A stretch of 33,647 nucleotides of DNA from Candidatus Choladousia intestinigallinarum (lineage in GTDB: Bacteria; Bacillota; Clostridia; Lachnospirales; Lachnospiraceae): positions 1 through 33,647 of the forward strand of contig DVGR01000185.1 of NCBI GenBank assembly GCA_018712605.1, in the 5' to 3' direction. Made by a program: the position numbers and the translations under genes. This document shows, one piece after another, positions 14,954 to 29,097 of this stretch. The notes below the pieces were generated by a model. It saw nothing but the letters and a program-made list of their open reading frames with translations, was not told the origin of the DNA and ran no database searches. The stretch's first letter is position 1; the number at the start of each line of letters is the position of its first letter.

Positions 14954-15118
14954 GCTGAACTGTTACAGAAGGATGTCATTCTTGAAATTCTGTTGTTTAC
15001 AAACCGCCTTTATAATGGTAGCATCTTATATAATGATGTTGAGGTCAAAAGCATTCAAATACCCAGATGGGAGGGTACTGCAGGGCAGGATTAGGATAGA
15101 GAGAAAGGATGAGAACAT

Positions 15119-18823: not shown

Positions 18824-20443
18824 TTAAAGCTTTCTGCTAAAGATCACTGCCTCATAGGGGCGCAGGCAATCCTTGCAGGAATCCTGGTCATAGTTGGAAA
18901 TCAGCACCTCTTCATCCTTCCACTGCTCTTTTAAGCTGCAGGGAAGCTCCTGCCCTGTAAAGCTGCAGAGGATAAGAAGCTGCTCTGTCTTACTGGTTCT
19001 TGTGTAGGCAAAAATGGAAGGATCTTCCGGCAAAAGCAGGTCAAAAGCCCCTTCTGTGAGAATCGGAAGGCTTTTGCGAAGCTGTATCAATTCTTGATAG
19101 TAGTGGAAAATGGAGTCCGGGTCTTTCCTGGCCTTTTCCACATTGATATCCGCATAGTTAGGATTAACTTTTATCCAGGGAGTTCCCTTGGTAAATCCGG
19201 CGTTTTCCTCATCGTTCCACTGCATGGGGGTACGGGCGTTATCCCTTCCCTTTACATAGATGGATTCCATTATTTCTTCCTTGGAATATCCCTTTTCTGT
19301 GCGCTCCTTATACATATTCAGAAGCTCGATATCCCGGTAATCCTCAATCTCCATCCGGGTATTGGTCATTCCGATTTCCTGGCCCTGGTAGATATAGGGC
19401 GTTCCCTGCATTCCGTGAAGGCAGGTGGCCAGCATTTTGGCGGACTCCACCCGGTATTTTCCATCGTCCCCGAAGCGGGAGACGGATCTTGGAAGATCAT
19501 GGTTTTCAAAGAAAAGGCTGTTCCATCCCTTCTGATAAAGAGCCTTCTGCCATTTTGCAAGGATTTCCTTAAACTGGACAAAAGGCAGGGGAGCCAGATC
19601 CCATTTCTCTTTACCCGGCTGCTGGTCCAGAAGAATATGCTCGAACTGGAATACCATAGAAAGCTCTGAGCCATCCGGGTTGCTGTAGAGCAGCGCGCTC
19701 TCTGGCGTAGCGCTCCAGGCCTCCCCCACCGTTACCAGATCTTTTTGCTGGAAGACGGCTTTGCTCATCTCTTTGAGGTAGGGGTGCAGCATCGGTCCTT
19801 CTGACGTGATCATGCGGTCCGGTTCCTTGGCAATCTGGTCAATGACATCCAGCCGGAAACCGCCGATCCCACGGTCTACCCACCACTGAATCATTTTGTA
19901 GATTTCTTCCCGGACTTTGGGATTTTCCCAGTTCAGATCCGGCTGTTTTACAGAAAACTGGTGGAGATAATACTGGCCGCATTCCGGCACCCACTCCCAG
20001 GCGGGGCCGCCGAAGCCGGCTTTCAGCTCGTTGGGATATTGTCCTTCCACGCCGTCCCTCCACACATAGTAGTCGTGGTAGGGATTGTCACGGCTTTTTT
20101 TCGCCTCCAGAAACCAGGGATGTTCATCCGAAGAGTGATTCAGCACCAGATCCATGATAATACGGATTCCACGGCTCTTTGCCTGGGCGATTAATTCATC
20201 CATATCCTCAAGGGTACCGAAAAGGGGATCGATATCCTGATAGTCAGAAATGTCATAGCCATTGTCGTCCTGGGGAGAGCGGTAGACCGGGGAGAGCCAG
20301 ATGGCGTCAATCCCCAGTTCCTTTAAGTAATCCAGCTTAGTTATAATTCCCTGCAGATCGCCCATACCGTCGCCGTTGCTGTCGCAGAAGCTTCGGGGGT
20401 AGATCTGGTAAATTACAGCGTTTTTCCACCATGACTGTTTCAT
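18824..20443 (-). CDS. GH13_31 oligo-1,6-glucosidase-type enzyme
   Basis: 539 residues, the usual length for oligo-1,6-glucosidases. The opening WWKNAVIYQIYPRSFCDSNG is diagnostic for GH13_31. The nucleophile is Asp199 in GFRLDVID, the general acid is Glu241 in VGEAW, and the third acid lies in FFENHDLPR. Val200 directly after the nucleophile is the residue that marks alpha-1,6 preference in this subfamily (alpha-1,4 enzymes have Ala or Thr). Likely substrates are isomaltose, isomaltulose-like or panose-type sugars; trehalose-6-phosphate hydrolase is less likely. The protein is cytoplasmic. The start overlaps the stop of the GH13_4 gene by 4 nt (ATGA). Confidence 0.9.
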   Translation of the reverse strand: MKQSWWKNAVIYQIYPRSFCDSNGDGMGDLQGIITKLDYLKELGIDAIWLSPVYRSPQDDNGYDISDYQDIDPLFGTLEDMDELIAQAKSRGIRIIMDLVLNHSSDEHPWFLEAKKSRDNPYHDYYVWRDGVEGQYPNELKAGFGGPAWEWVPECGQYYLHQFSVKQPDLNWENPKVREEIYKMIQWWVDRGIGGFRLDVIDQIAKEPDRMITSEGPMLHPYLKEMSKAVFQQKDLVTVGEAWSATPESALLYSNPDGSELSMVFQFEHILLDQQPGKEKWDLAPLPFVQFKEILAKWQKALYQKGWNSLFFENHDLPRSVSRFGDDGKYRVESAKMLATCLHGMQGTPYIYQGQEIGMTNTRMEIEDYRDIELLNMYKERTEKGYSKEEIMESIYVKGRDNARTPMQWNDEENAGFTKGTPWIKVNPNYADINVEKARKDPDSIFHYYQELIQLRKSLPILTEGAFDLLLPEDPSIFAYTRTSKTEQLLILCSFTGQELPCSLKEQWKDEEVLISNYDQDSCKDCLRPYEAVIFSRKL

Positions 20444-22350
20444 TCTTCCTGTCCTTTCTCCCTTTTAAGCCAGAAAAATCCGTTTGCGGGTACCCATACG
20501 CCGGAGGCTCTCATTTCCTGTCCGGTTACTAAATCCTTGTACATGCCGTCCTGCTGGTCAATCCATGCGATCTTATTGTACTCGCTGAAGTTGAAAAGCC
20601 CGATGAGCCTCTCGTCTTCATACTCCCGGACGATGCAGATAACGGACTGCTCATACGTATCGAGCGTGTAGAAAACAGCGTTTGACATAAATACTTTCTC
20701 GGAAGAACGAATCTTTTCCAATTTATCGAGGCCGTGATAGATCCGTTCAGACACGCTGCCTTCATTTTTAATATCATCCACCAGCTCCCAGCGGAATTTA
20801 CCTCTGTGGATATACCGGGAATCAGGAGCTTTTTCAGGAACATCCTTATAAGAATAATCGTTGGTCTGTCCCACCTCATCGCCGCTGTAGAGCATGGGAA
20901 TACCAGACTCTGTAAACATGAAAGCGTGAAGCATAAGGACACGGCTGATGGCAGCCTCCATCTGCTCTTCGTCCTGCTCGAAACCTGCTTTCTCCACACC
21001 GCACATGGAGGCTGTGGTACCGCAGAAGCGGGCGTCGCCGGTGACAGGGTCTGCATTGTACAGTTCGCCCCGGCTGAAGCTGCCCTCCACCGTCCCGGTG
21101 AAGAAATCATTGATATACTGTTTGTGAGGACGTTCCTCCATGCCCCACCAGCGGAGGGTAGGGTAATCCAGCCCCCATCCGATGTCGTCATGGCACCGCA
21201 GGTAGTTCAGGAACACATAATCTTTGGGAAGGGAGGCCAGCACATCCATCTGGTTTTTCAGAAGACGGGTGTCTCTGGTCGCCACGGAATTCCATGTGGT
21301 GGCCATGGTCGTCACATTGTAAAGCATGTGGCATTCAGGCTTCTCAAGGGTACCGAAGTAAGGTACTACCTTGGAAGGTTCCATGACCACCTCGCCAAGA
21401 AGTAGGATTCCCGGACACACTATCTCCCCGATCATACGCATCATCCTGACAATGGTATGCACTCTGGGGAGGTTCCGGCAGTTTGTTCCCAGCTCCTTCC
21501 AGATATAAGGAACTGCGTCGATGCGGATAACGTCAATTCCCGCATTTGCGAAGAACAGGAAATTGTACATCATCTCATTAAATACCCGGGGATTTCTGTA
21601 ATTCAAATCCCACTGATAGGGATAAAAGGTAGTCATAACGTAATGGCCAAGCTCCGGCAGATACGTAAAATTGCCGGGAGCCGTGGTAGGAAATACCTGG
21701 GGTACTGTCTTTTCAAACTGAGCCGGGATCGTATAATTATCATAGAAGAAGTAACGGCTCATATATTCTCCCTCACCCCGGCGGGCACGTACTGCCCACT
21801 CATGGTCCTCGGAGGTATGGTTCATGACGAAATCCATGCACACGCTGATGTCTCTGTCGTGGCAGGCCTTTGCGACTTCCTCTAGATCCTCTACGGTTCC
21901 AAGTTCCGGCTGTACCTTGCGGAAATTCGCCACAGCGTAGCCGCCGTCAGAACGGCCTTTGGGGGTTTCCAGTAGAGGCATAAGATGGACATAATTAATA
22001 TTGCTTTCTTTTATATAGTCCAGCTTATCCTTTACGCCCTGAAGGTTATCCGCAAAATTATCCACGTAGAGCATAACGCCCAGCATATCGTTTTTCTTAT
22101 ACCAGTCCGGGTCTGCCTCACGCTTCCGGTCCAAAGCCTTCAAATCCTCCCGGCGCTCTGTGTAAAACTGATACATCTGTTTGCACAGCTCGTCAAACAT
22201 CCACTCATTGCTGTATAATTCTGTATAGAGCCATTTCAGCTCGTCTAAATGCTTCTGAAACCGAAGATAATACTCTTCATCGTTAAAAGCCTTTATATCT
22301 GTTTTGGGTTTCGGTATAGTTTTGGTCTTGTTCTTTGCTTTTGCCTGCAT
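20440..22350 (-). CDS. GH13_4 amylosucrase-type sucrose enzyme
   Basis: 636 residues. GH13_4 members cleave sucrose and either extend alpha-1,4-glucan (amylosucrase) or hydrolyse it (sucrose hydrolase). The helical N-terminal domain (about 1-85) precedes the barrel. The nucleophile is Asp278 in VIRIDAVPYIWKELGTNCRNLP, the acid is Glu320 in LLLGEV, and LRCHDDIGWGLDY supplies the third acid; these match the known amylosucrase motifs with a constant offset of eight residues at the first two. No signal peptide is present; the first 20 residues are Lys-rich and low in complexity. Whether it makes polymer or only hydrolyses cannot be read here. ATAAGGAG precedes the start. Confidence 0.9.
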   Translation of the reverse strand: MQAKAKNKTKTIPKPKTDIKAFNDEEYYLRFQKHLDELKWLYTELYSNEWMFDELCKQMYQFYTERREDLKALDRKREADPDWYKKNDMLGVMLYVDNFADNLQGVKDKLDYIKESNINYVHLMPLLETPKGRSDGGYAVANFRKVQPELGTVEDLEEVAKACHDRDISVCMDFVMNHTSEDHEWAVRARRGEGEYMSRYFFYDNYTIPAQFEKTVPQVFPTTAPGNFTYLPELGHYVMTTFYPYQWDLNYRNPRVFNEMMYNFLFFANAGIDVIRIDAVPYIWKELGTNCRNLPRVHTIVRMMRMIGEIVCPGILLLGEVVMEPSKVVPYFGTLEKPECHMLYNVTTMATTWNSVATRDTRLLKNQMDVLASLPKDYVFLNYLRCHDDIGWGLDYPTLRWWGMEERPHKQYINDFFTGTVEGSFSRGELYNADPVTGDARFCGTTASMCGVEKAGFEQDEEQMEAAISRVLMLHAFMFTESGIPMLYSGDEVGQTNDYSYKDVPEKAPDSRYIHRGKFRWELVDDIKNEGSVSERIYHGLDKLEKIRSSEKVFMSNAVFYTLDTYEQSVICIVREYEDERLIGLFNFSEYNKIAWIDQQDGMYKDLVTGQEMRASGVWVPANGFFWLKREKGQEE

Positions 22351-22373
22351 GATATTCTCCTTATTGCTGCATG

Positions 22374-22397
22374 CAAGGCCGGCTTCGGCCAGCCTTG
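22374..22397. other. Hairpin in the GH32 to GH13_4 gap
   Basis: CAAGGC and GCCTTG flank GGC-TTCG-GCC, giving a 9-bp stem with one mismatch and a tetraloop. It lies just before the GH13_4 ribosome binding site on the minus strand. Two TATAAT boxes on the minus strand in the same gap lack clear -35 partners. Confidence 0.4.
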
Positions 22398-22462
22398 TGC
22401 GGATTATACTTGTACCTCCTAGTGGACTGTGTCATTATACTGAAAGCCAATGAGACAGTACA

Positions 22463-23983
22463 CTACTGAGATATATATAATTTGCCGGCGCCCCTGCCTC
22501 CGGATATCTGGATCTTTCCTTCAAGCAGGTCGGAATTGGTCTCATACCATATGTTGATTGTACCGGAATTACAGTACAGCTCCACAATGCCTCTGTCGAT
22601 TATAATATGTACATCCTCCAGTTTTTCCGGCAATACTGTTCTTTCGTCTTTATAGAAAAGCGCATTGTCACGGATGGACAGATTCTGGTTAAAAAGCTGA
22701 ATCGAAAGCCCAGCGCTGTCCTTCAGGTTCAGACTGAGTTCCGTGACAGCTTCACTTGTCAGTTCTGTCTCAAATTCCTGGTCTCCCCAGGAAAATTCTT
22801 CTTTTAATTTTTTGTTCTCATCATACTCCCTTACAGGCATCATAGACAGAAGCATTTCACCATGGCGTTTTACTGCGCCAAGCTCTCTGGGAATCCCCAT
22901 CATTCCTGTATAGAGCTTCCCGACATTTTTGGTGCGCAGCCAGGGAAGACTAATCACTCTTCCGTCCGTATTGCTGTAAGTCTGCGCCGCATAAGGCATA
23001 CGGGTAAGATAAGCTTTTCTCTGTACGGCGTCTGTGCGGAAATGATAGCCGTCAAAATCACCGAAATAATAGAAACCATCCGCACTTGTAAATACCCACA
23101 CGGTTTCTCCCTCACACTCCAGGCTGAATAAGTCGGGACACTCCCAAGCTTCATCCAGCACGAAGCTGTCTGTCATCTCCCAGTCCTGAAGATTTTCAGA
23201 GCGGAAGATTCCAAATTCATTTCCCTCCAGCCATAAAACCATAATATAGGCCTTTGTATCCTCATGCCAGAAGATCTTGGGATCCCGGCTGTCCTCACGA
23301 AGGACGTCAAGAGCCGGCTTAGGAAGCTTGATGAAGGTCTGGCCTTCGTCAAGGCTGTAGGCGATCCGCTGTGTAAAGCCTGCGCCGTTTTTCTTGCTCC
23401 AGGGATCCAGTCCCCCTGCCGCCGTGTAATAGAAGAGCAGGGCGTCTTTGGGGAGGCCCAGCATCCCACGGTCATTTACAAGGCCGCAGCCGGAATAAGC
23501 CGCTCCGAAGGCATCTGGATAGAGGACGTTGTCAGTCTGCTTAAAATGCAGCAGATCTGTGCTGACGCTGTGTCCCCAGGATAAATTCTGCCATTGGGTA
23601 TTGCAGGGATTGTACTGGAAATACAGATGGTAAGCCCCATTGTGGTATACCAGGCCGTTTGGATCGTTGATCCATCCCCTTTCTGCCGTGAAATGAAGAA
23701 GAGGACGCTTCAGGGGCTCCTGTTCATTCGTCTCCTTCTGGCAGAAGTCCTGGAAAAATTCCTGGTCAAAATCTCCCTTCAGGGTAAGGGTCTGTCCCTG
23801 GTATTCCTTTACGTTCAGATATGAATAATATTCATATTTCCGCTCACTTGGATTCTTGCACACGGGCACAAGGAACTCAAAAAGCTTCTCTTCCCCCAGA
23901 AAAATTTCCAGGGTTTCTTCCGGCAGCTCTGGCTGGATAGGAATTCCAAAATAATTCTGTTCGATCTTAATATTATATTCCAT
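22463..23983 (-). CDS. GH32 beta-fructofuranosidase (sucrose or fructan hydrolase)
   Basis: 506 residues, AAGGAGG 7 nt before the start. It hydrolyses the beta-fructosyl bond of sucrose, raffinose or short fructans. The three GH32 signatures are intact: WINDPNG with nucleophile Asp107, RDPKIF with Asp234 and ECPDLF with Glu281. About 95 residues precede the five-bladed propeller, an N-terminal extension whose family I do not recognise. The C-terminal beta-sandwich ends IQISGGRGAGKLYIS. There is no signal peptide, so it acts on imported, unphosphorylated sugar. It heads the enzyme half of the operon and appears to have its own promoter. Confidence 0.94.
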   Translation of the reverse strand: MEYNIKIEQNYFGIPIQPELPEETLEIFLGEEKLFEFLVPVCKNPSERKYEYYSYLNVKEYQGQTLTLKGDFDQEFFQDFCQKETNEQEPLKRPLLHFTAERGWINDPNGLVYHNGAYHLYFQYNPCNTQWQNLSWGHSVSTDLLHFKQTDNVLYPDAFGAAYSGCGLVNDRGMLGLPKDALLFYYTAAGGLDPWSKKNGAGFTQRIAYSLDEGQTFIKLPKPALDVLREDSRDPKIFWHEDTKAYIMVLWLEGNEFGIFRSENLQDWEMTDSFVLDEAWECPDLFSLECEGETVWVFTSADGFYYFGDFDGYHFRTDAVQRKAYLTRMPYAAQTYSNTDGRVISLPWLRTKNVGKLYTGMMGIPRELGAVKRHGEMLLSMMPVREYDENKKLKEEFSWGDQEFETELTSEAVTELSLNLKDSAGLSIQLFNQNLSIRDNALFYKDERTVLPEKLEDVHIIIDRGIVELYCNSGTINIWYETNSDLLEGKIQISGGRGAGKLYISQ

Positions 23984-24067
23984 CTATCTTCCTCCTTACT
24001 TCAACGGTCCTCCCGCAAGCGTCTGTCTTTAGGCAGAATGTGCGGCAGCATTCTATTTTGCCTGAAG

Positions 24068-24096
24068 ATTATAACCCAGGTCAACATGTGCTGCAA
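24068..24096 (-). promoter_or_regulatory. Candidate promoter of the GH32-GH13_4-GH13_31-GH36 block
   Basis: On the minus strand TTGCAG (24091-24096), a 17-base spacer and TATAAT (24068-24073). The spacer contains GTCAACATGTGC (24080-24091), nearly the same as a sequence upstream of the binding-protein gene, so it may be an operator. Confidence 0.5.
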
Positions 24097-24128
24097 GTAT
24101 TTTGCGAATGGCACAGGCGCCGCCACAC

Positions 24129-24292
24129 ATAAAAGCCACGGATTGCTCCGCGCCTTTGGCGCTCCCGCAATCCGACCCGTATTCGCAATCCGCACTATCG
24201 TGCTACTTGCTCATACGGGTTAGCGTCTCAAATGTCCATGCAGCCTTGCGTGCCAGCACGCAGTCTGCCTGCCCATTGAGACTGGCTTTTAT
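24129..24292 (-). ncRNA. Cloverleaf-like structured element inside the sugar operon
   Basis: The outer stem ATAAAAGCCA (24129-24138) pairs perfectly with TGGCTTTTAT (24283-24292). Arm 1 abuts it: CGGATTGC (24139-24146) with GCAATCCG (24167-24174), tipped by GCGCC-TTT-GGCGC. Arm 2 abuts arm 1: ACCCGTAT (24175-24182) with ATACGGGT (24213-24220), tipped by GCAC-TATC-GTGC. After TAGC comes arm 3: GTCTCAA (24225-24231) with TTGAGAC (24276-24282), containing TGCGTGC/GCACGCA, and it abuts the closing strand. It holds no ORF. It fits either a non-coding RNA or a small mobile or interspersed repeat; strand is assigned from the operon. Confidence 0.55.
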
Positions 24293-24295
24293 AGT

Positions 24296-24338
24296 AAAAA
24301 AACGCAGGGAGAATACGAAATGCATTCCCCGCTGCGTT
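24296..24338 (-). terminator. Terminator after the second permease gene
   Basis: On the minus strand AACGCAG-C-GGGGAAT pairs with ATTCTCCCTGCGTT (14 bp with one bulge and one G-U) and runs into a T tract (24296-24302 read in complement). It separates the transporter genes from the enzyme genes. Confidence 0.75.
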
Positions 24339-24346
24339 TGTAAACA

Positions 24347-25207
24347 TCAGCCTTTAACGGCGCCGGATGTAACACCCTCTACAATGTACCGCTGCAGGAA
24401 CAGATACAAAATCAGGATCGGCAGCATTGCCAGGAGCAGCGCAGCCATAACAAGTCCCATATCCGTAGAATACGTTCCGTAGAATGCCTGTGTGGCAATG
24501 GGGATCGTATACAGCTCTTTCCTTGCAAGTACAAGGCTGGGAAGCAGGTAATCGTTCCAGAATGCCATAGCGTCAATGATAGCTACAGTGGCAATAGTAG
24601 GTTTAAGCAGCGGAAATACGATTTTCCAGTATGTCTGCCATCTGGTACATCCATCGATGAGGGCAGCCTCTTCCAGTTCCAGAGGAATATTTGTCCGGAT
24701 CGCACCATGGAACATGAAAGTTGCCATGGAGATCGAGAAGCCCACATGCATCAGAATCAGGGTGATGCGGCTGTTCAGCACGCCAAAGATACCGCCGTAG
24801 AGAGATACCAATGGGATCATCAGCACCTGGAAGGGGATAACCATGGAAGCGATCATGCCGGCAAAGAGAAGCGCACAGGCTTTCCACTTATTGCGGACAA
24901 TGACGAAAGCGGCCATGGAGGATACCAGCAGAGTCAAAACGGTAGCGCAGGTGGTGACAATTAGAGAATTTGTGAATGCCACCGGGAAATTCATGCTCTT
25001 CATTGCCTCCGGGAAGTTGGCGGTTGTAAATCCATGCTCACCGATGAGGCTTAAGGGATTTGAAGTAATATCCCCATTGGTTTTAAATACGTTGATTACT
25101 ACCAGTAAGAATGGGAAAACAAATAATATAAACACAAGAATGAGAACAATCATCATTATGGCATGAGAAATTGTTTTCCTGCGTGCGGCTTTTGCATTAT
25201 CAGTCAT
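24347..25207 (-). CDS. Carbohydrate ABC transporter permease, MalG/MsmG type
   Basis: 286 residues with six predicted membrane segments, starting near residue 14 (MMIVLILVFILFVFPFLLVV). The conserved EAA loop that docks on the ATPase is visible as LEEAALIDGCTRWQTYWKIVFP, followed by the C-terminal ending EGVTSGAVKG typical of MalG-type subunits. It forms the membrane channel with the neighbouring permease and imports oligosaccharides captured by the binding protein. The start shares one base with the stop of the upstream permease gene. No ATPase gene lies nearby, so a shared MsmK/UgpC-type ATPase encoded elsewhere is expected. Confidence 0.93.
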   Translation of the reverse strand: MTDNAKAARRKTISHAIMMIVLILVFILFVFPFLLVVINVFKTNGDITSNPLSLIGEHGFTTANFPEAMKSMNFPVAFTNSLIVTTCATVLTLLVSSMAAFVIVRNKWKACALLFAGMIASMVIPFQVLMIPLVSLYGGIFGVLNSRITLILMHVGFSISMATFMFHGAIRTNIPLELEEAALIDGCTRWQTYWKIVFPLLKPTIATVAIIDAMAFWNDYLLPSLVLARKELYTIPIATQAFYGTYSTDMGLVMAALLLAMLPILILYLFLQRYIVEGVTSGAVKG

Positions 25208-26088
25208 TACGCTTCCACCTCTCCTTTCTTACCAATATATACCTGGGTTACACCCACAATGGCACATACGATAAACAGAATCAGAGCCTCAGCCTGGCCG
25301 GTGCCATACCTCCTGTATGTAAACGCCTGGTTGTACACGTGCATAGCTGCCATAACAGAGGAACCGAAGGGCTCGCCCTTTGTCAAGGACAGGTTCACAT
25401 CGTAAACCATGAAGCATCTTGTCAGAGTCAGGAAGAGACACTGTACAAAGGAAGATCTCATCAGAGGAACGGTTACGTAGAAAGTAGCCTGGCTCTGGGT
25501 ACAGCCATCGATCTCGGCGGCTTCCATGAGGCTCTTGGAAACGCTCATAAAGCCTGCTACGTAGATCAGCATCATGTAGCCTGCGTACTGCCATACGGAA
25601 ACGACGATGAGACAAAGCATAGCTCCGTTGGTAGTAGCCAGCCAGGAAGTAGACAGGGCACCGATTGAAAGTGACTGTCCGATGGATACTAAAGCACGGT
25701 TAAATACGAACTTCCAGATATAACCAAGAACGATGCCGCCGATCAGGTTCGGAATAAAGAAGCCTGCTCGGAAGAAGTTCTGGCCTTTGATGCCGCTGGT
25801 CACCAGGTATGCCAGACCAAAGGCCACCAGGTTTACGAATACAACGGCAATAACTGTATAGAATGCGGTTCTTCCCAGAGCCTGCCAGAAAGCGGCGTCC
25901 TGGGCGGCTGCCATATAATTCTCAAGACCTACAAAAGGCTTTTCGACGGAAACGCCGTCCCAGCTTGTGAAGGTCAGATATAAACCGTAAATAAACGGAA
26001 GAATCACGACGCCGAGGAATAAGATTGTCGCAGGACCGGCAAAGATGGTAAACTGGCCGATCTTATACGACATAGTATTCTTTTTCAT
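25207..26088 (-). CDS. Carbohydrate ABC transporter permease, MalF/MsmF type
   Basis: 293 residues, six predicted membrane segments, the first at about 13-35 (FAGPATILFLGVVILPFIYG). The EAA loop is MEAAEIDGCTQSQATFYVTVP, at the normal distance from the C-terminus. AGGAGGGGG precedes the start at long spacing. It follows the binding-protein gene after a 120-nt gap that contains a strong terminator, so permease transcripts are probably fewer than binding-protein transcripts. Confidence 0.93.
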   Translation of the reverse strand: MKKNTMSYKIGQFTIFAGPATILFLGVVILPFIYGLYLTFTSWDGVSVEKPFVGLENYMAAAQDAAFWQALGRTAFYTVIAVVFVNLVAFGLAYLVTSGIKGQNFFRAGFFIPNLIGGIVLGYIWKFVFNRALVSIGQSLSIGALSTSWLATTNGAMLCLIVVSVWQYAGYMMLIYVAGFMSVSKSLMEAAEIDGCTQSQATFYVTVPLMRSSFVQCLFLTLTRCFMVYDVNLSLTKGEPFGSSVMAAMHVYNQAFTYRRYGTGQAEALILFIVCAIVGVTQVYIGKKGEVEA

Positions 26089-26153
26089 CTCTTTTTCCCC
26101 CTCCTATTGTTTTAGAGATTGCTGGATCATAGGATCCTTCGCCTGTTTGGGGC

Positions 26154-26187
26154 AAAAAAAGGGGTGTCGGCGCCTGTCCGACACCCC
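26154..26187 (-). terminator. Strong terminator between the binding-protein and permease genes
   Basis: GGGGTGTCGG (26161-26170) and CCGACACCCC (26178-26187) form a perfect 10-bp stem with a 7-nt loop; read on the minus strand it runs into seven T (26154-26160). Partial read-through would give more binding protein than permease, a known design for such operons. Confidence 0.85.
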
Positions 26188-26208
26188 CGTATCAGCATGT
26201 TAAAGTGA

Positions 26209-27471
26209 TTAGTGCTCAACCGGAGTAGTAGATGACCAGTAAGCTTCAAGCTCGCCTGCGAAGCCTTCACGGTCGATCTGTCCAGCCAGATATTTCTGGA
26301 AGGAAGCGCCGCAGATTGAGTAGTGGTCATCCGGCAGATAGTCATAGTTGGGGATCAGGTTTCCAGCATCCGCATATTCCTTAACAGAAGCTCCCAGAGG
26401 ATCTGCTACTTCAAGAGAGATGTTGGTAAATGCGGGAACCAGTGCGCAGCTATCTACCAGGAAGGACTGGCCTGCTTCGTCACTTACCATCCAGTTCAGG
26501 AAGTCTTTTGCTGCCTGACGCTGCTCGTCTGTGATGCTCTCAGCGGAGTCAATGTAGAAGTATTTGGAACCGCCGCCTGTAAGCTTGGTGTTGGCGCCGT
26601 CATCCAGGTTCTGGGGAACAGGCATAATACCCATGTTCTCAGAGTAGTCGTACTGGTTGATTACGGACCAATCCCAGTTGCCGCCGAACATGAAAGCGAT
26701 CTCGCCTTCAGCCAGCTTCTGTGAGGTAACCTCACGCTCTGCTGCGATAGCAGAATCCTTTGCGTAGTTGTACTCCATCAGTACATCGAAAGTATCCATC
26801 AGTGCGTTAAACTTTTCGTTGTTGATCAGGTCTGCGGAACCTTCATACAGGCTCTGAACGAATGCTTCCGGGTCTTCCTGCTGCTCATATACCTGTGCAA
26901 GGAAATGTGCGCCGATGGACCAGTCTTCCTTCAGGATACCAACGGGTGCTGCCATGCCGCCCTCTACCAGAGTGTCCAGAAGGCCTTTGAATGCATCCAG
27001 TGTCGCATAATCAGCGGGAACGAATTCCTCACCTGTGATAGCTTCGATAGCGTCTGCGTTGTAGATCACGCCGCGGGCCTCAACACAAACCGGGAAGCCA
27101 AGAACTTTGTCGTCTACGGAGATAGCATAAGGAGTATTAGCTACCCACTCCTGGTCGCTCAGGTCGATTGCATGCTCCGGCCCTAAGGAATATACGTCCT
27201 TAGCGTCAACCATGGACATTACATAGGGATCGTCAGCAGCGTATCTGGAACCCATATGAGCTGCTACCGTATCGTTGGAGTAGTAAACCTCCATAGCAAC
27301 TCCTGCGGATTCTGAGTACGTAGAAGCTACCTCCTCGAACTGAGTCTGAATCTCCATCTTGGAATTGAAGACTGTCAGGTTCTCGCCCTCAGCCATAGCC
27401 GGTGTAGCTACGCTGGCTGCCAGAGATGCTGCCATAGCTGCAGCCATAACCATAGAAACTCGTTTTTTCAT
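26209..27471 (-). CDS. Sugar ABC transporter solute-binding protein with a non-lipoprotein signal
   Basis: 420 residues, AAGGAGG before ATG. It belongs to the MalE-like family 1 of binding proteins (FMFGGNWDWSVINQYDY, AAKDFLNWMVSDEAGQSFL). The signal peptide is MKKR, then an Ala/Met-rich core, then TPAMA followed by EGEN, an AxA-type cleavage site after residue 27. There is no Cys near the site, so no lipobox, although a Gram-positive binding protein normally needs a lipid anchor. Expected ligands are sucrose and raffinose-family sugars, judged from the neighbouring enzymes only. Transcription is likely from the TTGACA promoter upstream and under the adjacent LacI-type regulator. Confidence 0.92.
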   Translation of the reverse strand: MKKRVSMVMAAAMAASLAASVATPAMAEGENLTVFNSKMEIQTQFEEVASTYSESAGVAMEVYYSNDTVAAHMGSRYAADDPYVMSMVDAKDVYSLGPEHAIDLSDQEWVANTPYAISVDDKVLGFPVCVEARGVIYNADAIEAITGEEFVPADYATLDAFKGLLDTLVEGGMAAPVGILKEDWSIGAHFLAQVYEQQEDPEAFVQSLYEGSADLINNEKFNALMDTFDVLMEYNYAKDSAIAAEREVTSQKLAEGEIAFMFGGNWDWSVINQYDYSENMGIMPVPQNLDDGANTKLTGGGSKYFYIDSAESITDEQRQAAKDFLNWMVSDEAGQSFLVDSCALVPAFTNISLEVADPLGASVKEYADAGNLIPNYDYLPDDHYSICGASFQKYLAGQIDREGFAGELEAYWSSTTPVEH

Positions 27472-27511
27472 GTTTTCTTTTCCTCCTTCTTGGTTTTTAT
27501 CAGGTGTCTGT

Positions 27512-27548
27512 ATAGTACCACAAACTGCACAGATATGTCAATCGGTAA
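27512..27548 (-). promoter_or_regulatory. Promoter and candidate operator of the binding-protein gene
   Basis: Minus strand: TTGACA (27536-27541), 18-base spacer, TACTAT (27512-27517). The plus-strand sequence ATATGTCAATCGGT (27534-27547), covering the -35, matches ATATGTCAACCGAT at the LacI-type gene promoter except for two transitions, so it may be the operator of that regulator. Confidence 0.55.
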
Positions 27549-27813
27549 ACATAAATTTCATGGCCCAAAATTGTATTTTCGGTACATGTTAACGAACTTT
27601 AGCCTTTTTTTTTAGTTATATTTACCAATAGATTTTGTGGAAGAAATTGTGGAATTCACAATGGCATTTCTGGAATATGATTACCGTTGAACATAAAAAT
27701 AAAAATAAATTTATATGAATAAATACAACACATTAAGAAATCAGAAAATTTCTGAGATCGATTTAAAGTTTTATGACTAAAAAAGAATTCCGCAGCACGG
27801 TCCATGCGGAGCA
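27549..27813. other. AT-rich upstream region with palindromes
   Basis: This part of the 400-nt gap between the binding-protein and regulator genes holds no gene. It contains GTACATGTTAAC (27582-27593), the near-palindrome ATTGTGGAATTCACAAT (27646-27662, seven of eight base pairs) and the exact palindrome TCAGAAAATTTCTGA (27741-27755). These may be protein-binding sites; none matches a cre box. Confidence 0.4.
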
Positions 27814-27843
27814 TAAAAAATCCTGCCGGGTTTCCGGCAGGAT
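27814..27843 (-). terminator. Terminator of the LacI-type regulator gene
   Basis: ATCCTGCCGG (27820-27829) and CCGGCAGGAT (27834-27843) form a perfect 10-bp stem with a 4-nt loop; on the minus strand it runs into TTTTTTAT. Confidence 0.85.
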
Positions 27844-27871
27844 GAAAATCATGGATGGAGACAGGAGATTC

Positions 27872-28849
27872 TTATGTACTCTCACGTTTGATCAGTGAGA
27901 CAGGAAACCGCATTTCCTTGGCTACAGTTTCCCCGGACAGCACACTGTTCAGAGCGGAGACCGCAGCGTCCGCCATCTCTTTGACAGGCTGACGGATCGT
28001 GGTGATACGAGGGGTAGTGAGAGAGGCGATGTTTACATCGTCAAAGCCGACTACCTTAAGCTGTTCGGGAACCTGAATCTGCTTTTCTTTACATATCTGA
28101 ATCACCTGAGCGGCGATCAGGTCGGAGCTAGCGAAAATCCCGTCGATCTGGGGATTCTGTTCAAGAACCAGACGGATAATCGCATAATAATCCATTTCAT
28201 TATAGTATTCGTCATCTGGATTTATAGTCATATACTGCACGCCCATTTTTTGGCACACGGTCTCAAAGGATACCTTGCGCCCATCCGCAGGCATGGCCAT
28301 TTGGTTTACGCCGCCGATATGGAGCAGGCAGCGGCACCCCTGTTCGATTAAATGCTCCGTGGCCAGCATACCCCCCTGGTAATTGTCGCAGACAATGCCA
28401 GCGGTGGCTTCATCGATAAACCGCTCAATCGTAATGACAGGAAAATCCAGATTTTTAAAAACTTCTGTATGAAAAAGGCCGCTGAAGAGGATTACCCCCG
28501 AAACCCGGTTTCTCCAGCACATTTCAATATATTTTTCCTCCAGGTCTGTCTTCCCTTTGGAACTGAAGAGCAGGATTTTATAATTAGATTCATACGCTGC
28601 TTCTTCCAGACAGTCAATCATTTTCGCAAAATAAGGATGGACGATATGCGGAACTATAACGCCGATGGTGTTGGTTCTCTGGGTGGAAAGGGAACGGGCC
28701 ATCTCATTGGGCTGATAGTTCAGTTCCTTCATGACCCGGTAAACCTTTTGGCGGGTTTTTTCGCTGATATATCCCCGGTTATTCAAAACCCTGGAGACTG
28801 TTCCAACCGTCAGCCCCGATTCACGTGCCACATCCTTTAACGTAGCCAT
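27872..28849 (-). CDS. LacI-family transcriptional regulator of the sugar locus
   Basis: 325 residues from the ATG ending at 28849, 8 nt after AAAGGGG; the GTG three codons earlier has no spacing for a ribosome binding site. The N-terminal helix-turn-helix and hinge helix are standard: ATLKDVARESGLTVGTVSRVLNNRGY, then YQPNEMARSLSTQRT. The rest is a periplasmic-binding-protein-like sensor domain (IGVIVPHIVHPYFA, GIFASSDLIAAQ, VGFDDVNIASLTTPRITT). It probably represses the sugar operon until an imported sugar binds. It has its own promoter and terminator, and the shared motif over both promoters suggests autoregulation as well. Confidence 0.93.
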   Translation of the reverse strand: MATLKDVARESGLTVGTVSRVLNNRGYISEKTRQKVYRVMKELNYQPNEMARSLSTQRTNTIGVIVPHIVHPYFAKMIDCLEEAAYESNYKILLFSSKGKTDLEEKYIEMCWRNRVSGVILFSGLFHTEVFKNLDFPVITIERFIDEATAGIVCDNYQGGMLATEHLIEQGCRCLLHIGGVNQMAMPADGRKVSFETVCQKMGVQYMTINPDDEYYNEMDYYAIIRLVLEQNPQIDGIFASSDLIAAQVIQICKEKQIQVPEQLKVVGFDDVNIASLTTPRITTIRQPVKEMADAAVSALNSVLSGETVAKEMRFPVSLIKREST

Positions 28850-28884
28850 TTGCGTCACCCCTTTCTGTAAAATCTATATACATA

Positions 28885-28920
28885 AATATAGCATTTTTTC
28901 TTACAATATGTCAACCGATG
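28885..28920 (-). promoter_or_regulatory. Promoter and candidate operator of the LacI-type gene
   Basis: Minus strand: TTGACA (28909-28914), 18-base spacer, TATATT (28885-28890). The plus-strand ATATGTCAACCGAT (28907-28920) overlaps the -35 exactly as at the binding-protein promoter. Confidence 0.6.
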
Positions 28921-28940
28921 GTTAGATATATCAGATAGGA

Positions 28941-28969
28941 TTGTCTGGAAAGAAAAACTGTGATACACT
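28941..28969 (+). promoter_or_regulatory. Promoter of the HAD phosphatase gene
   Basis: TTGTCT (28941-28946), 17-base spacer, TACACT (28964-28969). Transcription would begin near 28976, where a stem-loop starts. Confidence 0.6.
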
Positions 28970-28975
28970 TTAAAA

Positions 28976-29022
28976 GATGCAGGATTGTGGGAGTGCGCAG
29001 CACGGAACAATCCGCAGGCATC
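28976..29022 (+). promoter_or_regulatory. 5'-terminal stem-loop of the HAD mRNA
   Basis: GATGC pairs with GCATC (28976-28980/29018-29022), GGATTGT with ACAATCC (28982-28988/29007-29013) and GTGC with GCAC (28993-28996/29000-29003). The hairpin begins at about the predicted transcription start, a position known to protect mRNA ends or to hold regulatory leaders. Confidence 0.45.
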
Positions 29023-29097
29023 ATAGTTGAGGGCTTTTGACATCAACATCTTTAAAAAGAGAAAACATAGAGAAAAGGAAAACAGAGGACAGAAAAG

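Follow-up and report, generated by a model that had tools for sequence, protein, structure and literature searches.

The element at positions 24129–24292 of the window (the whole 33,647-nt stretch of Candidatus Choladousia intestinigallinarum contig DVGR01000185.1 analysed here) is a mobile repeat, a conclusion that we hold with high confidence. We consider it probable that a copy of a MITE-like repeat, with the RF01699 four-way junction as its core, was inserted here. The first-pass annotation had proposed either a non-coding RNA or a mobile repeat whose folded form matters; the copies, empty sites and sister-branch target duplications reported below support the mobile repeat and the fold proved to be conserved, while nothing beyond an Rfam label spoke positively for a non-coding RNA.

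The four-way junction and its Rfam family

The element forms a four-way junction on the minus strand, composed of the following parts:

24129–24292, minus strand: four-way-junction core, recognised by an RF01699 match at 24131–24290, the fold z-score and genome copies
24283–24292, minus strand: 5' strand of the 10-bp closing stem, perfectly complementary to its partner at 24129–24138
24225–24282, minus strand: arm A (GTCTC...GAGAC), branch-specific, from the fold, with compensatory changes in 9/15 outer and 3/3 inner pairs
24175–24220, minus strand: arm B, common to all branches, from the fold, with compensatory changes in 9/15 pairs
24139–24174, minus strand: arm C, common to all branches, from the fold, with compensatory changes in 4/11 pairs
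24101–24126, minus strand: 3' extension, a degenerate remnant of an accessory hairpin, recognised by comparison with other copies, which read TGCCTGCGCCAGCAGGCATGTAAG when intact

The closing stem is indeed perfect, ATAAAAGCCA (24129–24138) pairing with TGGCTTTTAT (24283–24292) with no mismatch, and the three arms are nearly linkerless and carry an inner hairpin each, as had been described: arm B, arm C and the closing stem abut directly, and a single 4-nt linker lies between arms A and B. The earlier argument that such exact closure is very unlikely by chance fails for the 10-bp repeat alone, since seven perfect 10-bp inverted repeats at a spacing of 120–210 were counted in the window against about 3 expected by simple arithmetic. 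It stands for the nested fold: what lies beyond chance is the whole fold and its conservation across copies. Minimum free energies for 184 nt were -79.4 kcal/mol on the plus strand and -90.4 kcal/mol on the minus strand (z = -8.15 and -7.61 versus shuffles, none of which was equally stable). The element was also said to contain no ORF; there is none of at least 60 aa wholly inside 24129–24292, and three short mechanical ORFs overlap it.

The sequence had been described as matching no tRNA or riboswitch known to the annotator; it does belong to a listed Rfam family. Its minus strand is RF01699, 'Clostridiales-1 RNA', matched over the full length of the covariance model (positions 1–166) with 126.7 bits, where the gathering score is 48, so the element was already in databases. 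A scan of 23600–24800 returned RF01699 and one sub-threshold match, and nothing else. The family originates from Weinberg et al. 2010 (PMC2864571), in whose main text it occupies one table line as a likely RNA that is neither a switch nor cis-regulatory. Rfam types it as a small RNA with function unassigned, and a search of the open-access literature, judged by titles and abstracts, found no publication describing it as mobile.

Copies fall into branches set by the closing stem, namely AAAGCC (that of the window), AAGTCC and GATGCC/GATACC (hereafter GATG), with arms B and C in common. The stems are conserved, and compensatory changes are present in 26 of 49 tested pairs, about half, from which we conclude that the fold is selected. 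In an alignment of 20 copies from the AAAGCC and AAGTCC branches, 97.6% of cells pair, and the covariation score is 0.398, whereas shuffles reach 0.146 and slid partners at most 0.08; many of the compensatory changes separate branches, so they represent fewer events than cells. With both strands folded, G.U pairs barely outnumber A.C pairs (26 vs 15), and RNA folding is therefore not favoured over DNA folding. A first count of 67 vs 19 was biased by single-strand folding, and we make no strand claim from it.

Several copies carry additional structure. A hairpin module of ~50 nt (...GCCAGTGGC...AGCGCCGACCGAAGCGGAGCGGAGA...) yields five-way versions of the junction; it lies between arms B and C in L009, L010, L014, L025–L028, L030 and L178, and inside arm B in L211 and L212, with a similar arrangement in L324 and L332. 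The GATG branch has a similar module at another position, so that the module resembles a nested mobile unit in its own right. In the AAGTCC copies (L121, L126, L129, L131–L133, L135 and L136), the flanks lengthen the closing stem by complementary, copy-specific bases, with a mean extension of 4.0 compared to a mean of 2.5 and a maximum of 4.0 in 2000 permutations, a pattern that recalls insertion into palindromes. The AAGTCC copies mostly precede a partial second copy and are antisense to the upstream ORF in 9/10.

Copies, empty sites and insertion scars

Like a MITE, the element is short, with a 164-nt core and no ORF wholly inside, and dispersed, with 48 copies above the Rfam cut-off in its own genome (2.97 Mb, 87% complete). 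BLASTN, suggested earlier as the way to tell a repeat from a single-copy sequence, found dozens of copies there (58 matching places), which favours a repeat; the Rfam model gave 69 matches at E <= 10, the 48 among them. The copies flank unrelated genes in varied contexts. Within the genus the number of RF01699 copies per genome ranges from 0 to dozens, and the two nearest relatives (84–85% identity at the window locus) have 0 and 2 matches. Across the order the family is patchy, occurring in 41/246 genomes and 22/117 genera from several families. No control genome had a match above the RF01699 cut-off, plasmids gave no matches and phages one weak partial match only. In 80 related sugar-operon loci (1.4 Mb), a search for copies or ends yielded a single weak TIR-like pair, in L068, and not one copy.

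The element lies, as first described, between the terminator of a permease gene and the promoter of a GH32 gene:

24296–24338, minus strand: Rho-independent permease terminator, found unchanged in L031 and L032, neither of which has the repeat
24068–24096, minus strand: predicted GH32 promoter (TTGCAG, 17 bp, TATAAT), undamaged by the insertion and also present in L031

The repeat starts directly after the T-run of the terminator. At the corresponding permease–GH32 gap, L031 (Candidatus Choladousia intestinavium) and L032 have the same terminator and the same promoter and no element; the L032 promoter counterpart reads TTGCAG-17-TATACT, and its promoter function, like that of 24068–24096, is predicted from sequence. 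A genome search recovered the same permease genes, as L149 (G019) and L150 (G022). The L149 junction is element-free, as in L032, and L150 probably belongs to the same species as L031. Further congeners (L154, L155 and L157) also have a terminator at this gap and lack the element. At a locus on contig C152 that holds two copies, G022 aligns over both flanks without either copy; the element there has the 3' end ...CATGTAAG and TTTAT at both ends. The empty sites at the window locus and at C152 thus demonstrate insertion at two loci.

The host operon (18824–28858, minus strand) is an ordinary one for oligosaccharide use. By Pfam, its genes specify three glycoside hydrolases (two of GH13 type and one GH32 enzyme), two ABC permeases with a solute-binding protein, and a LacI regulator.

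Target duplications were found in the GATG branch, in which a 3' extension follows the core and yields the ends GATGCCAGGGTCAAAAG and CTTTTGACCCCAACATC. These inverted ends are ~17 bp long, with exact target duplications of 7–8 bp outside them, mostly of the form ATNNNAT. Exact 7/7 direct repeats flank 13 of 31 copies and repeats of at least 6/7 flank 14, whereas 5000 permuted pairings of the flanks gave 2.5 on average and 9 at most. A wider list, which leaves out pairs without a repeat, holds 28 end pairs, with repeats of 7 bp (21 pairs), 8 bp (5), 9 bp (1) and 4 bp (1). Internally deleted GATG copies retain ends and repeats. The branch therefore has the terminal inverted repeats and target-site duplications expected of a MITE, and it is represented in the window as well:

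28976–29050, minus strand: second copy, 75 bp, internally deleted, GATG branch, recognised by an RF01699 match at 28916–29023 and by its ends
29051–29057, minus strand: 7-bp target duplication TTTTAAA of this second copy, an exact direct repeat with its twin at 28969–28975
15035–15051, plus strand: lone GATG-branch end (GATGTTGAGGTCAAAAG), recognised from its sequence as a pattern match with 1 mismatch

A search for GATG ends among congeners led to a partner transposon, an IS of 1,865 bp in G007 (L319). Its ends, GATGCTGGGGTCAAAAC and GTTTTGACCCCGACATC, enclose one intact ORF of 537 aa with Pfam matches to DDE_Tnp_1_6, DUF772 and DDE_Tnp_1, and its flanks (ATGTTAT / ATGACAT) agree at 5/7 positions. 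These sequence matches settle the class of the predicted transposase, whose best NCBIfam match is IS1182 at 124.9 bits, below the curated cut-off of 270. G007 also holds a decayed version, L340, which is bounded by these ends and flanked by an exact 9-bp duplication. The four-way junction is absent from L319. As expected of an IS1182-family derivative, the GATG branch has the same ends as this IS, with the transposase score under the cut-off. Given the ~17-bp ends, the duplications and the same ends on an IS, the reading of at least the GATG branch as a MITE of an IS1182-type element is well supported, and we infer the same origin for the AAAGCC branch of the window. In the window's own genome (87% complete), neither an L319-type transposase nor an IS1182 match was found; the source could have been lost, be missing from the assembly or be of another kind. 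A search for IS1182 in 12 genomes returned three fragments in G012 and weak pieces, none with convincing GATG ends.

Placement behind terminators and competing readings

The window's branch has its own ends, different from those of the GATG branch. AAAGCC copies start after a conserved TTTACT, and the branch has TTTACTNTGAAAGCCCAGTCTC at one end. A terminator hairpin with a T-run lies directly before 11/30 AAAGCC copies and on the opposite side of 0/30, compared to 175/6000 random positions (3%) and 5/92 TTTACT sites without the element. Several AAAGCC copies have TTTACT-like repeats at both ends, a candidate target duplication confounded by the consensus that the left and right flanks share; the 3' end of the window copy is decayed. 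Insertion into a 'TTTACTCTATAG' repeat was considered as a general rule for this branch and rejected, as it fits some copies only.

A second interspersed repeat (TTTACTCTATAGGAAACTTCGTTCCTATAGAGTAAAAGCTCCGC..., about 35 BLAST places in G000) also starts directly at terminator T-runs, for example in L300, L301, L304, L305 and L308–L310. It is joined to the AAAGCC repeat in L009, L015 and L025, and its hairpin arms vary by copy yet stay complementary, even into the T-run in L305. At a site shared by L002 (G000:C237) and L260 (G019:C175), two species carry different versions of the repeat, four-way and five-way, after an apparent T-box terminator that precedes a small gene and one resembling thrS (named from sequence reading alone); this occupancy is a replacement, a conversion or a second insertion.

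In the mechanism that we propose, a transposase of IS1182 type would move copies in trans by acting on their ends. The AAAGCC branch would move similarly via its own ends, favouring T-rich sites such as terminator T-runs, where an insertion would leave both the preceding terminator and the following promoter unharmed. Successful source copies would have to retain the fold, which would account for its maintenance, probably in the form of extruded or single-stranded DNA. A more active part for the junction is conceivable, though we think it unlikely: the folded strand, either RNA or DNA left single-stranded behind RNA polymerase, would be recognised beside a terminator hairpin and then integrate at the T-run. 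If the fold were selected for such terminator-seeking transposition, both the covariation and the one-sided placement would follow.

Single-strand transposition by an HUH/Y1 transposase, as in REP/RAYT or IS200/IS605 derivatives, is likewise an improbable reading. Hairpins would be recognised in single-stranded DNA and insertion would occur 3' of a motif like TTAC in a T-run, which fits the start of AAAGCC copies directly after TTTAC(T), the L032 empty site reading TTTTTTTTAC at the insertion point, and the accessory hairpin near the 3' end. This reading requires insertion without duplication, however, and the sister GATG branch has 7–8-bp duplications, the DDE partner shares the ends of that branch, and several AAAGCC copies carry TTTACT-like repeats at either end. 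The strongly conserved fold and the terminator-adjacent, single orientation of one branch could also recall group IIC introns, and with them a retroelement-like unit that has terminators as its target. We regard this as barely credible, given the inverted ends, 7–8-bp duplications and DDE partner of the sister branch and the lack of an intron match in the Rfam scan of 23600–24800.

A genuine non-coding RNA with a host function, duplicated around the genome, would account for the Rfam membership and the strong covariation. We find this quite unlikely: the nearest relatives have the operon but not the element at this locus, and congeners range from 0 to dozens of copies; the sister branch has inverted ends and target duplications; the copies were not seen to share a gene context; wobble pairs show no strand preference; and the copy sits between the terminator of one unit and the promoter of the next. 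The location inside the operon, between permease and GH32, might instead suggest that it regulates the sugar operon in cis or attenuates it. Context and empty sites led us to reject a riboswitch or operon attenuator, and cis-regulation in general is very improbable: the element comes after the permease terminator and before the GH32 promoter, relatives retain both without it, and other copies stand beside unrelated genes.

Comparison with known systems

With the MITE-like repeat as the preferred reading, a family listed as a small RNA becomes the main part of a mobile repeat that has left insertion scars and whose partner transposon can be named. Mobility would explain the absence of a common gene context for RF01699, and it speaks against calling the copies sRNA genes in annotation. 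The repeat can serve as a marker of recent transposition in these gut genomes, and the question of why a MITE should retain a selected four-way junction and lie behind terminators can now be put to a direct test.

The window element matches the RF01699 entry in sequence and structure over its full length; whereas the family is listed as a probable RNA in the table of its source (PMC2864571), here it is dispersed and mobile, and one branch has transposon ends. The link to the IS1182 family is through L319, which combines an IS1182-like DDE transposase with the ends of the GATG branch; unlike members of that family, the repeat has no ORF, and L319 itself scores under the family cut-off. IS1272, an IS1182-family element, is reported to target inverted repeats (hairpins) and to replace them without duplications (PMC5678879). 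This hairpin targeting recalls the placement of our repeat beside terminators, a suggestive parallel, but the outcome differs because the terminators here remain intact, and the GATG branch makes 7–9-bp duplications. BOX and RUP in Streptococcus pneumoniae, like the GATG branch, have inverted ends and target duplications (PMC3049150). With BOX, RUP and SPRITE (PMC3049150) and other bacterial MITEs (PMC10969869), the repeat shares a short, intergenic, non-coding and modular or nested organisation with foldable transcripts; it differs from them in having a four-way-junction core that covaries across branches and one branch that lies directly downstream of terminators.
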